Positions 42,137-60,830 of a DNA stretch of 64,000 nucleotides are shown in pieces (the first letter of the stretch is position 1; every line of letters starts with the position of its first letter). The notes under the pieces are model-generated. The model ran no database searches. It worked only from the letters and a program-made list of their open reading frames with translations, and had not been told where the DNA came from. The translations under genes were made by a program, and so were the position numbers. This stretch comes from Mucor racemosus (taxonomy: Eukaryota; Mucoromycota; Mucoromycetes; Mucorales; Mucoraceae). Where the stretch lies: the NCBI GenBank assembly GCA_027405735.1, contig JAPEHQ010000001.1, positions 930,001-994,000 of the forward strand, in the 5' to 3' direction.

Positions 42137-43570
42137 CTTGGAATGTGAAAACAAAAGGAGAGAAACAATACACGTATAAAAGGATTATTTTCAAGGCTTT
42201 ACATTATTTAGCGCAATTAAAACCCTGCTAAATTGCGCATTTCATCCAATATAAAAGCAGTATTGCAACGCATGAACCATTAACGAAACAAAATAGGCAA
42301 TATCTGTTATCATAGAAACATACATTTTTCTACCAGAAAAACCGTCTGTCATATCATGCATTCATTAAAAAATTGCAAAAGCGAGCCCGTAGAGCTACTC
42401 TGTAATTGAGCATAGCAAGATTGAACGACTAATAGGTCTCTTATACTATGGTATATATCTAAGTTTTAAATAAAAAATCGTTTTTTATAACTTTTCTTAT
42501 ATTTAACCACGTACAATCTGAAAATTCAGATTTTGTAGCGGACATTTCCAGGACTCATTTTCTCCTTACCAACACTCATGATTTTGATCAAAAATCAGAA
42601 AAATCAAATTTTGATACCAAAATCAACGTTCAAATATACCACATTGTGAGAGAAAATTGTAGCCATGACTAATACACATTTTATAAAAGCTTAATATTAA
42701 GTGTTAAGTAATGAAACTTTGCATTTTTGCCCCAAAAACGGTTTTTTGAGTAAAGGATTTTCATGTAATATTTTGCAATAAAAATGTTTGTTATTTTTTA
42801 TTGAGCAAATAGAGCGCTAAATTCTGTATATGTGTATATTTTTTGTTTTTATAGTTGGTAGTATAATTAACTCTAGATTTGCAAAATCAAAAAAAAAATT
42901 AAAAAATGTCAAAATTGATGATTTGGACAAAAATAATTTTTGAAATTAATATTCCGCTTATAAGCCTTGTAAGTCTTAAAAATAAGAGGTTTTATAATAC
43001 TTGAGAACCTTTTCAAGAATTTTTTACGATGATGAACCCACTTGATTCAAGCTTATTACTGTAAATCTTTATACATGTTAATATTGTGTGGTAGTTTATT
43101 TGATGATAATATAGTCTTACTTTATAATTATTGCGTTGGAGGTGATTTAAATTGAGTTTTAGTCTTACCTCTCCAATATGATTCTGGAATACAGTAGGTG
43201 GAGATATTCACGGAAAAAAAGTATAAAAAATAATAGGAATTCGACTACGTCTATCGTGAGATACATAATAAATTCAGTAACAGGTAGCATAATGCAACTA
43301 TTTATATCTATTTAGCAGTGTCTAAGTTGTATCCTGAAAAACGTTTTGCGTAAGGTTAGTTATAGAAAAGGTGGCACACTTAAGTTTTGGAATTTTTTAT
43401 TTTAAAAATCAACTTGTTTATAAGCATCTGTAAATGACTGCAGTGCTATATTATTACATAAATTCTTCATGATTTATTGTTCTTAATTATGTAGAAATAT
43501 AATATTAAATACATGAGATTGCATAGCAAATTGGTATATATATATAAATATTTTATGTGTATATATAGAT

Positions 43571-46500
43571 TTATTTCTTAGCAGTTAAAAGTTTTGATTT
43601 ACCCTGTACCATCATATGAGCAGATTGGGGAGCAAACTTTTTAATAGCTGCAATTAATTCGGGAAATCTTAAGGGTTTTGTTACATATTCATCCTATAAA
43701 AAATATACAAGTTAGTTACAAAAGTTGGAATCATTCAGTAGTTAATAATTACCATGCCAGCTTGTAAACATTTCTCACGATCACCAATCATAGCGTGAGC
43801 TGTTAAAGCAATAATAGGTATATGTGAATTATTATTCATACTATGTTCGATTTCACGAATCTTTTGAGTTGCCTCAAAACCTCCCATAACAGGCATTTGG
43901 ACATCCATCAAAATGAGATCAAAAGTTTGAGATTCATAGGCTTCTACGGCCAATTTACCATTTGCAACAACCTTGACATGATGACCAAACTTTTCTAAAA
44001 TACGAACAGCGAGCTTTTGATTTACATCATTGTCTTCTGCGAGTAAAACTTCTAAAGGTACTGTCTTGGACGCATCACTTGGTAGTGCAGCATGACTTTC
44101 TAATGCAGGTAACATAACTGCAGCCATGTCCGCAAGACTTGTTGGTGAATTAATATATCCAGTGATGCCTAAATCAATGCAAAGTTTCATATTCAATAAA
44201 TGAACTTCAGGAGCAATCAAGACAATAGGTGTGTATCGTAAGGGTACAATTTCTCGAATCTTTTCAGCTGATGTCATTTTATCTATGATTACAGTGTCAA
44301 AGAAGGGAGCATGCTTACTCTTACTAGAGTTTGCATTCGAAATTGCAGCAGCTTCTTCAATACTATCAACACGGTAAGGCTTCAATCCAAGCATGGTCAC
44401 CTTATCTAAGGCACCAGTTTGATCTTTCATAGTGTCTACAAACAAAATTCTTCTATTTCTATAACGACGAATTTTTTCTATCACTTCTTTCTGATCAAGA
44501 CTGAATTGGAAGAAATTAACAGTGAAATAAAATTCTGAACCACGGCCATATTTGGATTCAACCCATAAATCGCCACCCATCAATTGTACCAAATGTTTAG
44601 AGATTGATAGACCAAGACCGGTACCACCATACTCTCGACTAGACAGTTAAAATTAGTATCTGAAAGTTTGTATAAATATGATATTAAAAACTTACGTAGT
44701 ACTTCCATCAGCTTGACAGAAAGTATCAAAAATAACATTTAGCTTATCTTCTTGAATACCTATACCGGTATCGCTAACACAGAATTCAAGTCTAACTGTA
44801 CTATCTTGCATACGAATAGCTCTTGTACGAAGAACGACTTCACCTTGAGTAGTAAACTTAACAGCATTACCGATCAAGTTTGTAATAACTTGTCGCAAAC
44901 GAAGAGGATCACCAATTAACTGATCAGGAATTGATTGATCGACATGATAAATAAGGTCAAGTTTCTTTTGATTTGCTTTGACTGCAAGAGTCTTAAGAAC
45001 ACTAAATACGGCGGACCTCAATGAGAATGGGATCGATTCAATTGTCATTCGACCAGCTTCAATTTTTGAAATATCCAAAATGTCATCAATGATGGTGAGA
45101 AGACTATTAGCCAAGCTAGATACAATCATCAAATTTTCTCTTTGTTGTCTATTCAATTCTGTTTCTAATGTTAAAGAGGTCATACCAATAATACCATTCA
45201 TAGGTGTTCTGATTTCATGACTCATGTTGGCTAAGAATTCACTCTTGGATCGATTTGCTAATTCAGCAGCTTCTCTTGCTAATCTATTCTTTTGGATAGC
45301 GTCGCGGAGTGATCCCACCATTTGATTAATTTTAGTTTTGAGAGAATCCATTTCACCAGATGCTTCAACAGTAATTAAACGAGAGAAATCATTCTCAGTG
45401 GCAGCAGCAGAAATTTGAGCAAAAGCACGGACTTGAGTAGTAAGATTAGAAGCCATGGTATTAACGTTACTAGTAATGTCTCTCCAAAGACCTTCGATAT
45501 CTTCAACCTGTGCTTGAACGCCAAGCTTACCTTCTGTACCGACTTCCTTTGCGACCCTCGTAACTTCGGATGCGAATGAGCTAAGTTGATCAACCATAGT
45601 ATTGATAGTGTTCTTTAATTCAGCAATTTCACCGTGTACTTCAACTTCAATCTTCTTGCTAAGGTCACCTTGAGCTACTGCTTTACAGACTGCGGCAATA
45701 GCTCTCAATTGATCAGTCAAATTACTAGCCATGAGGTTTACATTATCAGTCAAATCTTTCCAGGTACCATCAACACCAATAATAGTAGCTTGACCACCAA
45801 GCATACCTTCGGTACCAACTTGTCTAGCTACTCTTGTTACTTCTGCGGCAAATACACGAAGTTGATCCACCATGTCATTTACTGTCTCTCTATGAAGTTT
45901 AATGAAAAATTAGTCAAGTGCCCTTTCAATAATCAAAGAAAATTATTACTTTAGTTCTCGTATTTCACCACGAGTCTCGACATCAATCTTTTTAGATAGA
46001 TCACCACTAGCTACAGCTTTAGTGACAACAGCAATTGAACGTACTTGGGTCGTAAGATTACTAGCCATAGTATTTACATTATCAGTTAGGTCTTTCCAAG
46101 TACCTGCAACACCTTGAACATTAGCTTGTCCACCAAGTTCACCTTCAGTGCCTACTTCTCTAGCAACACGAGTTACCTCAGAAGAAAATTCTCTTAATTG
46201 ATCTACCATAGAGTTAACTGTGATCTTTAATTCTAGAATTTCACCACGAGTTTCAACGTGAATTTTCTTGGACAAATCACCATTAGCAACAGCTTTAGTA
46301 ACTTCTGCAATCGAACGAACTTGAGATGTAAGATTGGCTGCCATAATATTGACGTTATCAGTGAGCTCATTCCAGGTACCAGCAACGCCTTGAACAACAG
46401 CTTGACCGCCTAGTTTACCTTCTGTACCTACTTCCTTCGATACACGAGTTACTTCAGAAGCAAAGATTCGAAGCTGATCCACCATGTTATTCACGATATT

Positions 46501-49500
46501 CTTTAGGTCAAGGATTTCTCCACCAGATTCAACTTCAATCTTCTTAGATAGATCACCTAATGCGACAGCTTTAGTCACCTCAGCAATGGATCTTACTTGA
46601 TTCGTAAGATTTGCAGCCATGATGTTGACATTATCCGTCAATTCATACCAAGTTCCAGCAACGCCTTGAACAAAAGCCTGCCCGCCTAGTTTACCTTCAG
46701 TTCCTACTTCTTTAGATACTCGAGTAACTTCAGACGCGAATATACGCAATTGATCCACCATGCCATTGACAATATCCTTCAATTCCAAGATTTCACCTCG
46801 AGTTTCAACCTCAATCTTCTTTGATAGATCACCCAATGCAACAGCCTTAGTAACCTGAGCGATAGAACGTACCTGCGTTGTCAAATTTGCGGCCATGGTA
46901 TTGACATTATCTGTCAAATCCATCCAGGTACCAGCAACGCCCTCCACCTTGGCCTGTCCGCCGAGTTTTCCTTCTGTGCCTACTTCTTTAGCAACACGCG
47001 TTACTTCTGCTGCAAACACATTTAATTGATCCACCATGTCATTTACTGTATCTTTTAGATCAAGGATTTCACCACGGGTTTCAACCTCAATCTTCTTGGA
47101 AAGATCACCATTTGCAACAGCTTTAGTAACTTGTGCAATAGAACGGACTTGAGTTGTTAGATTGGCTGCCATGGTATTGACATTATCTGTCAAATCCATC
47201 CAAGTACCAGCAACGCCTTCTACAGTAGCTTGACCGCCAAGTTTTCCTTCTGTACCGACTTCCTTTGCAACACGAGTTACTTCAGAGGCAAAGATACGAA
47301 GTTGATCCACCATGGAATTGACTATATTCTTCAAATCAAGTATTTCTCCTCCTGATTCTACTTCAATCTTCTTGGAAAGATCACCCAAAGCAACAGCTTT
47401 AGTAACTTCAGCAATGGAACGGACTTGATTTGTAAGATTGGTAGCCATAGTATTGACATTATCAGTTAGGTCTTTCCAAGTACCATCAACATTTGGTACA
47501 CGAGCTTGACCACCGAGTTTACCTTCGGTACCTACTTCACGAGCAACACGAGTTACTTCAGAAGCAAATACACGCAATTGATCTACCATAGAATTGACAA
47601 TATTCTTCAAATCAAGAATTTCGCCACGAGTCTCCACTTCGATTTTCTTTGATAAATCACCGCTAGCTACAGCTTTGGTTACTTCTGCAATTGATCTTAC
47701 TTGAGTAGTCAAATTTGCAGCCATGATGTTGACGTTATCAGTGAGCTCATTCCAGGTACCAGCAACGCCTTGAACAACAGCTTGACCGCCTAGTTTACCT
47801 TCTGTACCTACTTCCTTCGATACACGAGTTACTTCAGAAGCAAAGATTCGAAGCTGATCCACCATGTTATTCACGATATTCTTTAATTCAAGGATTTCTC
47901 CTCCTGATTCTACCTCGATCTTCTTTGATAGATCACCTAATGCGACAGCTTTAGTCACCTCGGCAATGGATCTTACTTGATTTGTCAAATTAGCGGCCAT
48001 GATATTTACATTATCTGTAAGCTCATACCAAGTACCAGCAACACCTTGAACAACAGCTTGTCCACCTAGCTTGCCTTCAGTACCTACTTCTTTAGATACT
48101 CGAGTAACTTCAGATGCAAATATACGTAGCTGATCCACCATGCCATTGACAATATCCTTTAGTTCTAGGATTTCGCCTCGAGTTTCTACCTCAATCTTTT
48201 TGGATAGATCACCTAAGGCTACCGCTTTGGTAACTTGAGCAATGGAACGCACTTGTGTCGTTAGATTTGCAGCCATTGTATTTACATTATCTGTAAGATC
48301 TAGCCAGGTACCTGCCACGCCTTCAACCATAGCTTGGCCACCAAGCTTTCCTTCTGTGCCTACTTCTTTAGATACACGAGTAACCTCTGCAGCAAATACT
48401 CGAAGTTGATCCACCATGTCATTTACTGTATCCTTCAAATCTAGGATTTCACCACGAGTCTCGACTTCAATCTTTTTCGATAAATCACCATTTGCAACAG
48501 CTTTAGTAACTTGTGCAATAGAACGGACTTGGGTCGTAAGATTAGCTGCCATTGTGTTTACATTGTCTGTAAGGTCCATCCAAGTACCAGCAACACCTTC
48601 TACAGTAGCTTGACCGCCAAGTTTTCCTTCTGTACCAACTTCCTTTGCAACACGAGTTACTTCAGAGGCAAAGATACGAAGTTGATCCACCATGGAATTC
48701 ACAGTAATCTTGAGATCAAGAATTTCACCACGAGTTTCTACTTCAATCTTCTTTGATAAATCACCACTAGCAACAGCTTTAGTAACTTCTGCAATCGAAC
48801 GAACTTGAGATGTAAGATTGGCTGCCATAATATTGACGTTATCAGTGAGCTCATTCCAGGTACCAGCAACGCCTTGAACAACAGCTTGACCGCCTAGTTT
48901 ACCTTCTGTACCTACTTCCTTCGATACACGAGTTACTTCAGAAGCAAAGATTCGAAGCTGATCCACCATGTTATTCACGATATTCTTTAGGTCAAGGATT
49001 TCTCCACCAGATTCAACTTCAATCTTCTTAGATAGATCACCTAATGCGACAGCTTTAGTCACCTCAGCAATGGATCTTACTTGATTCGTAAGATTTGCAG
49101 CCATGATGTTGACATTATCCGTCAATTCATACCAAGTTCCAGCAACGCCTTGAACAACGGCTTGTCCGCCTAGTTTACCTTCAGTACCAACTTCTTTGGA
49201 AACACGCGTTACTTCTGATGCAAATACACGAAGTTGGCCAACCATATCATTGATTGTATCCTTCAGATCTAACATTTCACCTCGAGTTTCAACCTCAATC
49301 TTCTTGGAAAGATCACCCTTCGCAACAGCTTTAGTAACTTGTGCAATAGAACGGACTTGAGTTGTTAGATTGGCTGCCATGGTATTGACATTATCTGTCA
49401 AATCCATCCAAGTACCAGCAACGCCTTCTACAGTAGCTTGACCGCCAAGTTTTCCTTCTGTACCGACTTCCTTTGCAACACGAGTTACTTCAGAGGCAAA

Positions 49501-52500
49501 GATACGAAGTTGATCCACCATGGAATTGACTATATTCTTCAAATCAAGTATTTCTCCTCCTGATTCTACTTCAATCTTCTTGGAAAGATCACCCAAAGCA
49601 ACAGCTTTAGTAACTTCAGCAATGGAACGGACTTGATTTGTAAGATTGGTAGCCATAGTATTGACATTATCAGTTAGGTCTTTCCAAGTACCATCAACAT
49701 TTGGTACACGAGCTTGACCACCGAGTTTACCTTCGGTACCTACTTCACGAGCAACACGAGTAACTTCAGAAGCAAATACCCGAAGCTGATCCACCATTTC
49801 ATTGACAGTATTTTTTAGATCTAGGATTTCTCCTCGAGTCTCCACCTCAATCTTCTTAGATAAATCACCACTTGCTACAGCTTTGGTTACTTCTGCAATG
49901 GATCTTACTTGAGTAGTTAGATTTGCAGCCATGATATTGACGTTATCAGTCAATTCATACCAAGTACCTGCTACATTTGGTACACTAGCTTGACCGCCTA
50001 GTTTACCATCAGTACCTACTTCTTTAGAAACACGAGTTACTTCAGAAGCAAAGATACGAAGCTGATCTACCATGCCATTGACAATATCTTTCAATTCTAA
50101 AATTTCGCCTTTAGTTTCAACTTCGATCTTTTTAGATAGATCACCTAGAGCAACAGCCTTGGTTACTTCTGCAATGGATCTTACTTGAGTAGTTAGATTT
50201 GCAGCCATGATATTGACATTATCAGTCAATTCATACCAAGTACCTGCAACATTTGGTACCATTGCTTGCCCACCTAGTTTACCTTCTGTACCTACTTCTT
50301 TGGATACACGAGTTACTTCTGATGCAAATATACGAAGTTGATCTACCATGTTATTGACAATGTTCTTTAATTCCAATATTTCACCGCCTGATTCTACTTC
50401 GATTTTCTTGGATAGATCACCATTAGCTACAGCTTTAGTTACTTCCGCGATAGATCTGACTTGATTTGTTAGATTGGCTGCCATGATGTTAACATTATCC
50501 GTGAGTTCATTCCAGGTACCAGCAACGCCTTGTACGACAGCTTGACCACCCAATTTACCCTCTGTGCCTACTTCTTTGGAGACACGAGTAACTTCAGATG
50601 CAAATACACGCAGCTGATCGACCATGTTATTAACAATATTTTTCAAATCTAAAATCTCGCCACCAGATTCCACTTCGATCTTCTTGGAAAGGTCACCCAA
50701 AGCAACAGCTTTAGTAACTTCGGCAATAGATCTAACCTGATTCGTAAGGTTTGTGGCCATATGATTGACATTATCAGTTAGATCCATCCAGGTACCATCT
50801 ACATTTGGAACTAGAGCCTGACCACCAAGCTTACCATCAGTTCCTACTTCTTTAGCGACTCTGGTGACCTCGGCAGCAAAAACATTTAATTGATCTACCA
50901 TACTATTTACTGTATTCTTTAGATCTAGGATTTCACCTTGTGTTTCAACGTCAATCTTCTTTGAAAGATCACCCTTCGCTACAGCCTTGGTTACAGTAGC
51001 AATTGATCTCACTTGAGTCGTTAGATTTGCTGCCATGGTATTCACATTGTCAGTTAGATCTTTCCATGTACCACTGACGCTAGGTACAATGGCCTCACCA
51101 CCAAGCTTGCCTTCGGTACCAACTTCTCGGGCTACACGAGTAACCTCGGAAGCAAATACTCTCAACTGATCTACCATGTTATTAACAGTATCTTTAAGAT
51201 CAGAGATTTCACCACTGACATTAACTTGGATTTTTTTAGATAAATCACCATTGGCAACAGCTTTAGTTACAACAGCAATTGACCGCACCTGGGTGGTTAG
51301 ATTGGTAGCCATTGTATTCACATTATCAGTTAGATCTTTCCAGGTACCATCTACATTCGGCACTCTCGCTTGCCCGCCTAGTTTTCCTTCTGTACCAACT
51401 TCACGCGCCACCCGTGTTACCTCGGAAGCAAACACACGGAGCTGGTCTACCATGTCATTCACTGTATTTTTCAGGTCCAAGATTTCACCACGTGTTTCAA
51501 CTTCGATCTTTTTAGACAGGTCTCCCATTGCTACTGCCTTGGTAACTTCGGCAATAGACCGCACTTGAGTTGTAAGATTTGCTGCCATAGTATTTACATT
51601 GTCTGTTAAGTCTTTCCATGCACCACCAACATCTTTAACTACAGCTTGCCCGCCTAGTTTGCCTTCTACCCCTACTTCCAATGATACACGCCGCACTTCA
51701 GCAGAGAATAGAATAAGCTGATCGACCTATAGATTTTCAATTATTAACATTTGTAGTTAATTTGCATCTCAATTTAATTCGTTTTTACCATTTGATTCAT
51801 TGTATTCTTCAACTCTAGCACCTCGCCCTGAGCATTTGCTTTCACTTTCTTTGATAAATCACCTCGAGCAACTGCTTTCGCAACTACAGCAATGTCTCGA
51901 ACTTGATTTGTAATCTTTGTTGCCATCATATTAACATTATCTGTTAGATCTTTCCATGTACCGCCCACATCTTTAACTATAGCTTGACCACCTAAAATGC
52001 CTTCTGTTCCAACCTCTAGAGATACCCTCGTTACTTCTGTAGCAAATATAGATAACTGTTTAAGCATTAGCATTGAATTATTATTATTATATATATATAT
52101 ATATTCTCTTACTTGATCCACCATCGTATTAATCGTATTTTTAAGATCCAGCATTTCACCTCTCACTTCTACAGTGACCTTTTTAGTCAAATCACCACGA
52201 GCAACAGATTTAGAAACTTGAGCAATATCTCGTACTTGGTTAGTTAAGTTTGCAGCCATTGTATTCACATTATCCGTAAGTTCTTTCCATATACCATCAG
52301 CGCCTTGTACCTTTGCTTGAGCACCTAATTTTCCTTCTGTACCAACTTCATGAGCTACTCTTGAGACTTCGGAAGCGAATAAATTCAATTGATTAACTGG
52401 TAAATTAAAGTTTGATGTTAATAAAAGGGTAGGAAACCATAACAGTGTTACATTTACCCATAGTATTAAATGTATTTTTAAGTAATAAAGTTTCACCCTT

Positions 52501-53737
52501 GACAGGTACAGTCATTGCTTTACTAAGATCACCTCGAGCAATTGCAGTTGAAACATCAGCAATATCTCTAACTTGCTCAAGATGATTTTGAGTCATACTG
52601 TTCAAATTCAAAACAAAATCATGCCATAATCCTTTCATATCATTTCCACAACGGGCTTGGACACCCAGTTTACCATTAACAGCTGTTTCATGAGCAACAA
52701 AACTAACTTCATCAGCAACAATTTGAAGCCTATCAGCCATGGCATTTACAGCATTTTTCAAAGTATTTATAGGTGCATTAGGTTCAACATCAGCTCCAGG
52801 AACAACACATCTTTCATGTTTACAAGTAATACGACGACCAAGATCACCATTAAAGACACAAGAGGCAACTTTAACAGCTTGAATAACACAATCAGGACAT
52901 ACGATATTATCAGAACTAGTTTGAACAGTAGCAGCAGGGAAAGCAATTATAGATGGTGACATTGTAGCACCAAAATAAACAGGGTAAGCAGTAGCAGCAG
53001 AAGAAATATTAAAGGGAGGAGTAGCAGTAGTAGTAGTAGACGATGATGAAGTAGCAGCAAGACCAGCAGCAGCATTATTGTTAGTAATAGAAGAAGTAGA
53101 TGTAGTAGATGTAGCATTGTCAACTATTAGTTGGAATTTTAGATGATTAATTTCAATATTGAAATACGTAACTTAACAACTTACCAAAGTAACTCTTTTG
53201 TTGATGTTGACGGTAAGAATTTTCCAATTTATCGAGCAATGATGAATCATGAATAGATGTCAGATTATCTTCAGGTGTAGTAGTATTTAAGCTACATTCA
53301 CCACCATTTTCTTTATTTTTACTCCTTTTCTCTCCTCCTCCACCTCCATCATCTTCTTCTTTTTTATGTTTATTATTATTATTTTCCATCTGCTGATGAT
53401 TTCGGCTCATGACCTTTTCCTCGTGACCATGTGCTGTAAGTAGTTGATGCTGCTGCTGGATCATAATGCGGCTTCTTAAATTTTCAGTTTCTAATTGCAG
53501 CTGACGTTGAGCTATTTTCTTTAGATTCAAGTCGAGTGCATTTAGTAAATCAGAATCTGTCTTGGATAATTCATCGAGATTAGACAAGTCTATGGCATTA
53601 GATAAACAGTGGTCGATATTTCCCTGTTCTAAATTATTTACAAGGTCATGAATATATTGAATAACTGACATTGTTGAATTATCACGAATTTTCTTTTTTA
53701 TAATGGGTGAATTATCTCCTGTACAAGAACGTTTCAT
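43571..53737 (-). CDS. NIK1: Giant group III hybrid histidine kinase with 27 HAMP-type units
   Basis: Eight exons (53737-53185, 53123-52458, 52396-52113, 52055-51789, 51726-45950, 45889-44696, 44638-43753, 43693-43571) close in frame to 3,249 residues. Group III kinases are cytosolic sensors upstream of the HOG MAP kinase and the target of phenylpyrrole and dicarboximide fungicides. The N-terminus (about 1-270) is low complexity with a Gln-rich helix and [12 protein letters not shown]. About 270-2710 is the poly-HAMP region. The kinase has H-box [10 protein letters not shown] (His2740), N-box [16 protein letters not shown] and [10 protein letters not shown]. The receiver has AEDNDVNQ, phospho-acceptor Asp3159 (LILMDVQMP) and [10 protein letters not shown] in the last exon. 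Family members usually have about 1,200-1,350 residues and five or six repeats, so the HAMP region is four- to five-fold expanded while catalytic parts are normal. The ATG at 53737 (MKRSCTGD) is the first in frame after an A-rich leader. Confidence 0.93.
45950..51726 (-). repeat. Coding tandem array: 21 periods of 276 nt (92 codons)
   Basis: This single exon holds 1,925 codons plus two bases, equal to 21 times 92 minus 7, so every period is exactly 92 codons with no indel. Each period contains GDLSKKI, then GEI.(D/E)LK..(V/I)N.MVDQL, EVTRVxxEVGT(E/D)GKLGG, GTWxxLTDNVN and A.NLTxQVRSIA. Periods fall into subtypes by the segment before GTW (VPNVD, VEGVA, VQGVA, VPNVA) and by GTW(K/M/Y/N)(D/E)L. 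Subtype order partly recurs. Further, more diverged units lie in the flanking exons, four upstream and two downstream. Confidence 0.95.
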
Positions 53738-59703: not shown

Positions 59704-60830
59704 TATAGGGTACTAGCCGTTTGGTTTCGCTACGCTCAATTACGGTATCGCCCTGTGGGCTCGTTTTTTCAGTTTTTTAATGAAAGTTTGATTACTGCCA
59801 AGTGACAACTCTATCATCTCGTTACGCTCATCGATTACTATCTCTCTAGTCGAAAAATGTATGTTTTTATGACAAATAGTAGTGAGGTTTATGATCATCT
59901 GATCTTTGATTGGCCTGCCCCTTTTTTTTAAAAAATAACCCCATCCGCTATTCCTCCTTCTTTTTACTCATTTGAACACGTAGACAATTATATGTATAAT
60001 ATAAAATGGTCCCCTACACAACCCATCTTGTTTGGTACTGTAAATGAAACTGGACAATTTAATTTATGGAATTTTACAATAATAAACTTGAATCAAGTGG
60101 ATACAGTATCGTAGGTCCTTGAAAAGAGTTTTCAAATATCGTAAAATCTCTTATTTTTAAGACTTACAGTGCCTATAAGCGGAATATTAATTTCAAAAAT
60201 CATTCTTGTCCAGGCCACATCAATTTTGACATTTTTTTAAATTTTTTTTCTGATTTTGCAAATCTAGAGTTAGTTATACTACCAATTATAGAAACAAAAA
60301 ATATACACATATGCAGAATTTAGCGCTCTATTTGCTCAATAAAAAATAACAAACATTTTTATTGCAAAATATTACATGAAAATCCTTTAACCAAAAATCC
60401 GTTTTTGGGGCAAAAGTACAAAGTTTCATTAATTAACATTTAATATTAAGCTTTTATAAAATGTGTATTAGTCATGGCTACAGTTTTCTCTCACAATGTT
60501 GTATATTTAAATGTTAATTTTAGTATCAAAATTTGATTTTTCTGTTTTTTGATCAAAATCATGAGTGTTGGTAAGGATAAAATGAGCCCCGAAAATGTCC
60601 GCTACAAAAACTGAATTTTCAGACCACACATAGTTAAATACAAAAAAAAATCTTTTTTATTTAAAACTTGGAAATATCATAGTATAAGAGAGTTAGCAGT
60701 TCCACTTTGATACAGTACGCTCAATCACGGCGTTGTCCTGCAGCTAGATTTTGAAATTTCTTTAATAAATGTGTCATATAACAGACAGTTTTTCTAGTAG
60801 AAAAATGTAGGTTTTTTTTTGCTATGTCAG
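59704..60830 (-). mobile_element. Large repeat R, fragment 4, reversed
   Basis: From about 60085 to 60640 this is the reverse complement of the conserved 700-bp section of R (landmark GCGCTCTATTTGCTCAATAA). The stretch 59704-59880 is a more diverged reverse copy of the CGAGCCCGTAGAGCGACGCC segment. No ends are preserved. Confidence 0.65.

Follow-up and report, generated by a model that had tools for sequence, protein, structure and literature searches.

We find that Mucor racemosus encodes a group III (Nik1/Os-1-type) hybrid histidine kinase with 27 HAMP-type units, a real, long-array member of a known kinase family that is neither unique nor the largest. The gene lies in a 64,000-nucleotide stretch of contig JAPEHQ010000001.1 (assembly GCA_027405735.1, positions 930,001 to 994,000; hereafter the window). 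A splice-site search placed it on the minus strand (53737-43571) with eight exons, 3,249 encoded residues and GT-AG introns of 57-62 nt (Table 1). The splicing was inferred from genomic sequence, and the model used is one of four open models from the GT-AG search, chosen for its consistent unit register. An annotated protein of Helicostylum pulchrum (P0001) aligns across all seven splice junctions, the first of which is poorly conserved in sequence. The kinase and receiver boxes are intact (H-box, N, G1, G2 and the receiver D, T and K motifs), and Pfam matched HisKA, HATPase_c and Response_reg. An initial reading made from the letters alone (the sequence-only reading) had proposed eight exons closing at this length with all boxes intact, and the splice search, Pfam and the motifs bore it out.

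Table 1. Features of the kinase gene, in window coordinates
Feature	Position	Strand	Basis
Kinase gene (group III hybrid histidine kinase; 3,249 aa in 8 exons)	43571..53737	-	splice model, Pfam
Exon 1: start codon, low-complexity N-terminus	53185..53737	-	splice model
Exon 2: units 1 and 2, cysteine cluster	52458..53123	-	splice model, unit profile
Cysteine cluster CPDC-x21-C-x4-C (residues 260, 263, 285, 290), head of unit 1	52807..52899	-	motif scan
Exon 3: length of one unit, motif of unit 3	52113..52396	-	splice model, unit profile
Exon 4: length of one unit, motif of unit 4	51789..52055	-	splice model, unit profile
Exon 5: 5,777 bp without intron, 21 unit motifs (units 5-25)	45950..51726	-	ORF, TRF, Pfam, unit profile
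440-nt tract, copy one	49322..49761	-	identical to 47114-47553
440-nt tract, copy two, eight units away	47114..47553	-	identical to 49322-49761
390-nt tract, copy one	48768..49157	-	identical to 46284-46673
390-nt tract, copy two, nine units away	46284..46673	-	identical to 48768-49157
Exon 6: units 26-27, HisKA (H-box SHEIRTP, residue 2739), first part of HATPase_c	44696..45889	-	Pfam, motifs
Exon 7: remaining HATPase_c (GGTGLGL, residue 2918) and receiver (LLAEDN 3112, LILMDVQMP 3155)	43753..44638	-	Pfam, motifs
Exon 8: receiver end (VTKPL 3213) and stop	43571..43693	-	splice model, motifs

A profile of the 92-residue unit, derived from units 2-26 of this protein and then scanned over the protein and its relatives, found 27 units, the same 27 as the raw motif list. 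Four of these lie in exons 2-4, 21 in exon 5 and two in exon 6, which is the distribution first read from the sequence. Unit starts are 92 residues apart throughout except at the first step, and the two end units score lower (41 bits for unit 1, 47 bits for unit 27) than all others (142-171 bits). Exon 5 (51726-45950) is a single open frame of 1,926 codons, in which TRF reported a tandem array of 276-bp period and 20.7 copies (45962-51678). Pfam HAMP matched 21 stretches in exon 5 (E 3.4e-204), two in exon 6 and two plus one in the upstream pieces. Introns 2-4 (junctions at residues 406, 501 and 590; unit motifs 92 apart) sit at near-equivalent unit positions, within 3 residues, so that the upstream units take up roughly one exon each and the expanded middle is one exon. 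This one-unit-per-exon layout upstream (51789-52457) is a trace of the array's origin.

Two further Pfam families, HTH_6 (PF01418) and SpoIIID (PF12116), exceeded their whole-protein cut-offs on the exon-5 array (45949-51726, minus strand), with no single stretch passing alone. We regard these scores as an artefact of summed weak matches to HAMP helices. For the myxobacterial kinases AskA and AskB, the available part of one paper describes partial HTH_6_RpiR and SpoIIID-like domains that overlap the HAMPs and links them to DNA binding (PMC7643160); these may be the same artefact.

In a tree of the kinase core the protein was placed among fungal records, separate from bacterial ones, and among the matches listed for a C-terminal search (best 120 of ~8,000) were several entries bearing the name Nik1 or the name histidine kinase osmosensor. 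A simple Kyte-Doolittle scan found no transmembrane segment; the sole 19-residue window reaching 1.6 lies within HisKA. The repeat number of 27 is outside the 5-7 of characterised group III kinases, and close orthologues are likewise in excess; since 5-7 describes the characterised proteins, it is not a family criterion. The Pfam domains, the tree and the Nik1-named matches thus uphold the class assignment of the sequence-only reading, and we conclude that the protein is a group III hybrid histidine kinase. The whole genome gave one HPt match, which is compatible with a single Ypd1-type phosphotransfer hub.

If the array were an assembly artefact, its true length would be five or six units. 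We consider this very improbable. Silent sites between units are near saturation (median dS 1.28, dN/dS 0.089; 171 pairs, units 5-23); the units therefore differ at most silent sites and are not assembler duplicates, and the low dN/dS indicates strong constraint on the protein. An array of 27 units is also found in Helicostylum, and the M. racemosus genome itself (53.2 Mb, 54 contigs) has a diverged paralogue with 21 units and 2,619 residues at about C16:180,500-188,700, in six exons as modelled here and without two of the window gene's introns. The genome thus holds two Nik1/Os-1-type group III hybrid histidine kinases. What speaks for an artefact is a near-copy of the window gene at a contig end (C16:1-10809), whose 10.8-kb alignment shows 4 mismatches and 19 gap openings and whose frame is broken. 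It ends 36 nt before the stop codon and then runs into sequence 97% like C21:963037-964041, which makes that contig end doubtful. In our reading, either the contig end is chimeric or unpolished, or this is a broken copy of recent origin. Near-copy and window gene do not differ by any whole unit, which again argues against an artefact, though the support is weak as both may rest on the same reads.

A dispersed repeat adjoins the kinase gene (window 42444-43179) and recurs at about 2630, 29662, 60075-60648 and 63346; it is 89-91% identical to a copy at locus L012 and, judged by its sequence, is probably a transposable element.

We compared unit numbers in 280 proteins gathered from three protein searches with length limits, each returning the best 120 of ~8,000 scored, a sample that leans to long arrays. 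From their record names, 219 were assigned to a lineage by hand, and 126 of the 219 were full-length-like (kinase, receiver and >100 residues before unit 1). The 93 set aside include long arrays (P0005, 25 units) and many short Mortierellomycotina with 1-6 units, which may be fragments or genuine. The H-box of Kickxellomycotina is HEVRTP, so that a sorting by regular expressions left this lineage out in error; the later count given here includes it.

Among full-length-like records, all 56 Mucorales had 12-27 units (median 20). Mortierellomycotina had 22-31 units in seven of eight records and 3 in one, Kickxellomycotina 18-40 (n=7; the maximum in Coemansia), Mycena 18-21 (n=5) and Dacrymycetes 26 (n=1), with two more dacrymycete records lacking a clear N-terminus at 25 and 28. 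Umbelopsidales had 8, 8, 8 and 18 units, and Glomeromycotina with Endogonales 4-8 (n=5). Basidiomycota outside Mycena and Dacrymycetes had 6-7 units (34/34), and Saitoella, the only ascomycete in the sample, had 6. A partial Linderina record reached 42 units, and presumed-bacterial relatives had 13-19 (30 counted, of which 29 lack an N-terminal stretch or a kinase plus receiver match). The published 5-7, as given in the available part of PMC5159414, thus holds for the species studied, not for the family at large. The sequence-only reading had placed the repeat number far above the usual, which holds against the characterised proteins and fails against non-Dikarya relatives with similar or longer arrays. 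Its author also knew of no Nik1 protein of this size; many such records are public, some of them larger and most named 'hypothetical protein', and long arrays are common in early-branching fungi. Giant group III arrays were not found in the open-licence PMC literature, which omits most subscription papers.

On a kinase tree of 69 hand-picked rows, long (>=12) and short arrays are separated by seven changes, at least four of which are forced by well-supported branches, indicating that long arrays were gained or lost several times. Two joins in this tree, including that of Mycena with Dacrymycetes, were flagged as possible long-branch artefacts.

Neighbouring interior units follow one another at precisely 92 residues in 2,414 of 2,513 pairs where the protein is fungal or unassigned, and in 534 of 574 where it is presumed bacterial. 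In a unit-by-unit alignment, window units 2-12 are collinear with those of Mucor hiemalis, Helicostylum, Pilobolus, Benjaminiella and Mycotypha, and the last units are collinear again from window unit 23, 21, 21, 23 and 22 on, respectively; the middle of the array differs among these five proteins by whole-unit insertions and losses. Between the paralogues, too, the last units are the most position-conserved. The Mucor lusitanicus protein P0056 has no counterpart of window units 8-11 and 17-20; of the units that do align, most are 97-100% identical. As units 8-11 are present in the five other proteins, a block loss in M. lusitanicus is probable. Its gene model contains one odd step of 75 residues, and its count of 19 units may be off by one. 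An array eight units longer than that of a close relative speaks against a finely tuned count, as implied by the dosage-tuned sensor first suggested for this gene. The same reading also put forward, as a conjecture, altered signal transmission.

Within exon 5, two pairs of tracts of 440 and 390 nt are exact (Table 1), while DNA identity between units is otherwise ~76-80%. Judged by their sequence, gene conversion or local copying in the recent past is the best explanation of these tracts. Such exchange, the whole-unit block differences between species and the wide variation within one order (12-27 in Mucorales) would all fit a neutral drift of array length, with unequal recombination adding and removing units and selection purging only errors of frame or register. 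We nevertheless hold pure drift to be rather unlikely. Length is clustered on the kinase tree, where the seven changes compare with a shuffled mean of 16.1 and none of 500 shuffles was as low, but related rows cluster anyway and the searches favour long arrays. That no full-length-like member of the Mucorales has fewer than 12 units also speaks against drift, subject to the same two caveats.

We lean towards a relay: a long two-chain HAMP rod that runs from a cysteine-headed cap to the kinase, with special ends and a near-interchangeable middle. By its family, the kinase would be the first member of a His-Asp-His-Asp phosphorelay in a HOG-type stress pathway. Each 92-residue unit would consist of two HAMP domains in series, and 27 units would form a long parallel rod of two chains, down which a signal may pass as alternating HAMP states. 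The ends are unit-specific, position-conserved modules, namely the cap at the head and the last units adjoining the kinase. The middle is made up of near-interchangeable units, the putative relay, which recombination adds or removes in whole steps while selection and gene conversion keep them similar.

A predicted model of the last units and the kinase (405 residues, 41 aligned sequences, mean pLDDT 73.8, pTM only 0.35) has helices at 2-33, 49-79, 94-125, 141-171 and 186-248, the last of which continues into the HisKA helix. This amounts to two helices of 31-32 residues per unit, which fits two HAMP domains per unit. In the HAMP fold the halves overlap side by side, each helix forming the second half of one HAMP and the first half of the next. 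The predicted rise is then probably about 2 x 16 x 0.15 nm = 4.7 nm per unit, or ~125-130 nm for 27 units. The rod of roughly 250 nm in the sequence-only reading is, by these predicted helix lengths and the HAMP fold, probably about twofold too long. Foldseek and VIA-align matched only the kinase domains of the 405-residue model and barely tested its HAMP parts; PDB 9trk was not among the matches listed. An AlphaFold model of three central units, built with 18 segments from the window, reached a pLDDT of 40.8, and its geometry was discarded.

We counted the near-fixed 92-residue spacing in favour of a relay, as a floppy spacer would not need it; a conserved register would, however, be expected in a regular rod of any kind, whether or not it signals. 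It is conceivable, if doubtful, that the middle units serve purely as a mechanical spacer or scaffold and determine reach or placement, regulation of the kinase being left to the last few units beside it. This would agree with the eight-unit difference between close relatives (27 in the window, 19 in P0056), with the 6-7 units on which Dikarya manage (the 34 basidiomycete records above) and with the position conservation of the last units across paralogues. The strict step and the strong protein constraint argue against a spacer, but a rigid one would need both too. Against the relay stands the passage of a signal through 54 domains, which is without tested precedent here. According to the available part of PMC5159414, Debaryomyces Nik1 depends on the order of its HAMPs, and its kinase is regulated by the nearby HAMP4-HAMP5. 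The same part lists phenylpyrrole use against Rhizopus, and the Rhizopus records in our survey have long arrays, which suggests that long-array proteins may still serve the fungicide response. On the evidence taken as a whole, we judge the relay to be the probable reading.

The cysteine cluster at the head of the array (Table 1) is a possible metal (zinc) or redox cap, as judged from its sequence pattern. Of the 93 assigned non-Dikarya proteins that have an N-terminus, 89 carry the pattern CxxC-x19..23-C in that part: Mucorales 60/60 (including the window gene and its paralogue), Umbelopsidales 4/4, Mortierellomycotina 11/11, Kickxellomycotina 6/8, Dimargaris 1/1, Entomophthoromycotina and Basidiobolus 2/4, and Glomeromycotina and Endogonales 5/5. 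It was found in none of 41 Dikarya, which are mainly Basidiomycota (5 Mycena, 1 Dacryopinax, 34 other Basidiomycota and 1 Saitoella), and in neither of two presumed-bacterial records with a long N-terminus. The rows in these counts are related to one another and not independent. Of 156 proteins with an N-terminus, 96 have the motif in that part, and none has it anywhere in the other 296,118 residues. In 85 of the 89, another C or H comes within the next six residues, and in Kickxellomycotina the motif reads C-x2-C-x21-C-x2-C, resembling a zinc ribbon. The four of 93 non-Dikarya proteins without the three-cysteine pattern speak against a cap, and a fourth ligand is absent in some proteins, including three of five Glomeromycotina.

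The window protein has no cysteine between residues 343 and 2584. Arrays are cysteine-poor with the motif (275 cysteines in 138,530 residues) or without it (22 in 18,953), and cysteine-poverty is therefore no evidence for a cap. For the stretch with the cluster no Pfam family was reported and no solved chain covers it, and the motif was not found for fungi in the open-licence PMC literature, which omits most subscription papers. The cluster heading non-Dikarya arrays is new here. Tentatively, and with low confidence, we suggest that in non-Dikarya the cap might clamp the start of the first HAMP helix and its connector through zinc or a disulphide and so take metal or redox input, with the long, cysteine-poor array as relay, and that Dikarya may have lost the cap and kept short arrays.

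Among the closest known proteins is that of H. pulchrum (EDC94DRAFT_649616, P0001; 3,218 aa), which has the same architecture and number of units, collinear ends and 94% identity over the exon-5 query; its middle units are arranged differently and it is annotated only as a hypothetical protein. The nearest kinase core in the 69-row tree is that of M. lusitanicus (FB192DRAFT_1283970, P0056; 2,367 aa), which differs in its lower unit count. Os-1, DhNik1, CaNik1 and TcsC share HAMP repeats, HisKA, HATPase_c, one receiver and the lack of a membrane segment, and differ from the window protein in having the 5-7 repeats of characterised group III kinases (PMC5159414, available part); for TcsC, the title of a paper cited in the part of PMC11253588 available gives six. 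Myxobacterial AskA, AskB and Amb07 are likewise soluble hybrid kinases with an extended poly-HAMP region, but they are bacterial and are likened to the window protein by description only, from the part of PMC7643160 available. Bacterial GAF/poly-HAMP hybrid kinases (e.g. P0087, P0117, P0140 and P0157) have the 92-residue unit, in 16-18 copies in these four, ~67-69% identical, but split off in the kinase tree (100/100) and show GAF domains in Pfam lists. The nearest solved chains to three central units are HAMP-array pieces of a histidine kinase fused to Gcn4p, PDB 9trk (E 8.2e-92) and 9trj, although these are short (356 and 264 residues).

No fungal stress kinases are better studied than those of group III, on which phenylpyrrole fungicides depend for their action, and experiments on their HAMP arrays have used proteins with 5-7 repeats. 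The cysteine motif is a concrete candidate for the input site of non-Dikarya group III kinases. Natural proteins with 12-40 repeats, a near-fixed 92-residue step and whole-block differences between close relatives form a natural length series, which serves to ask how far a HAMP signal travels and which units matter.
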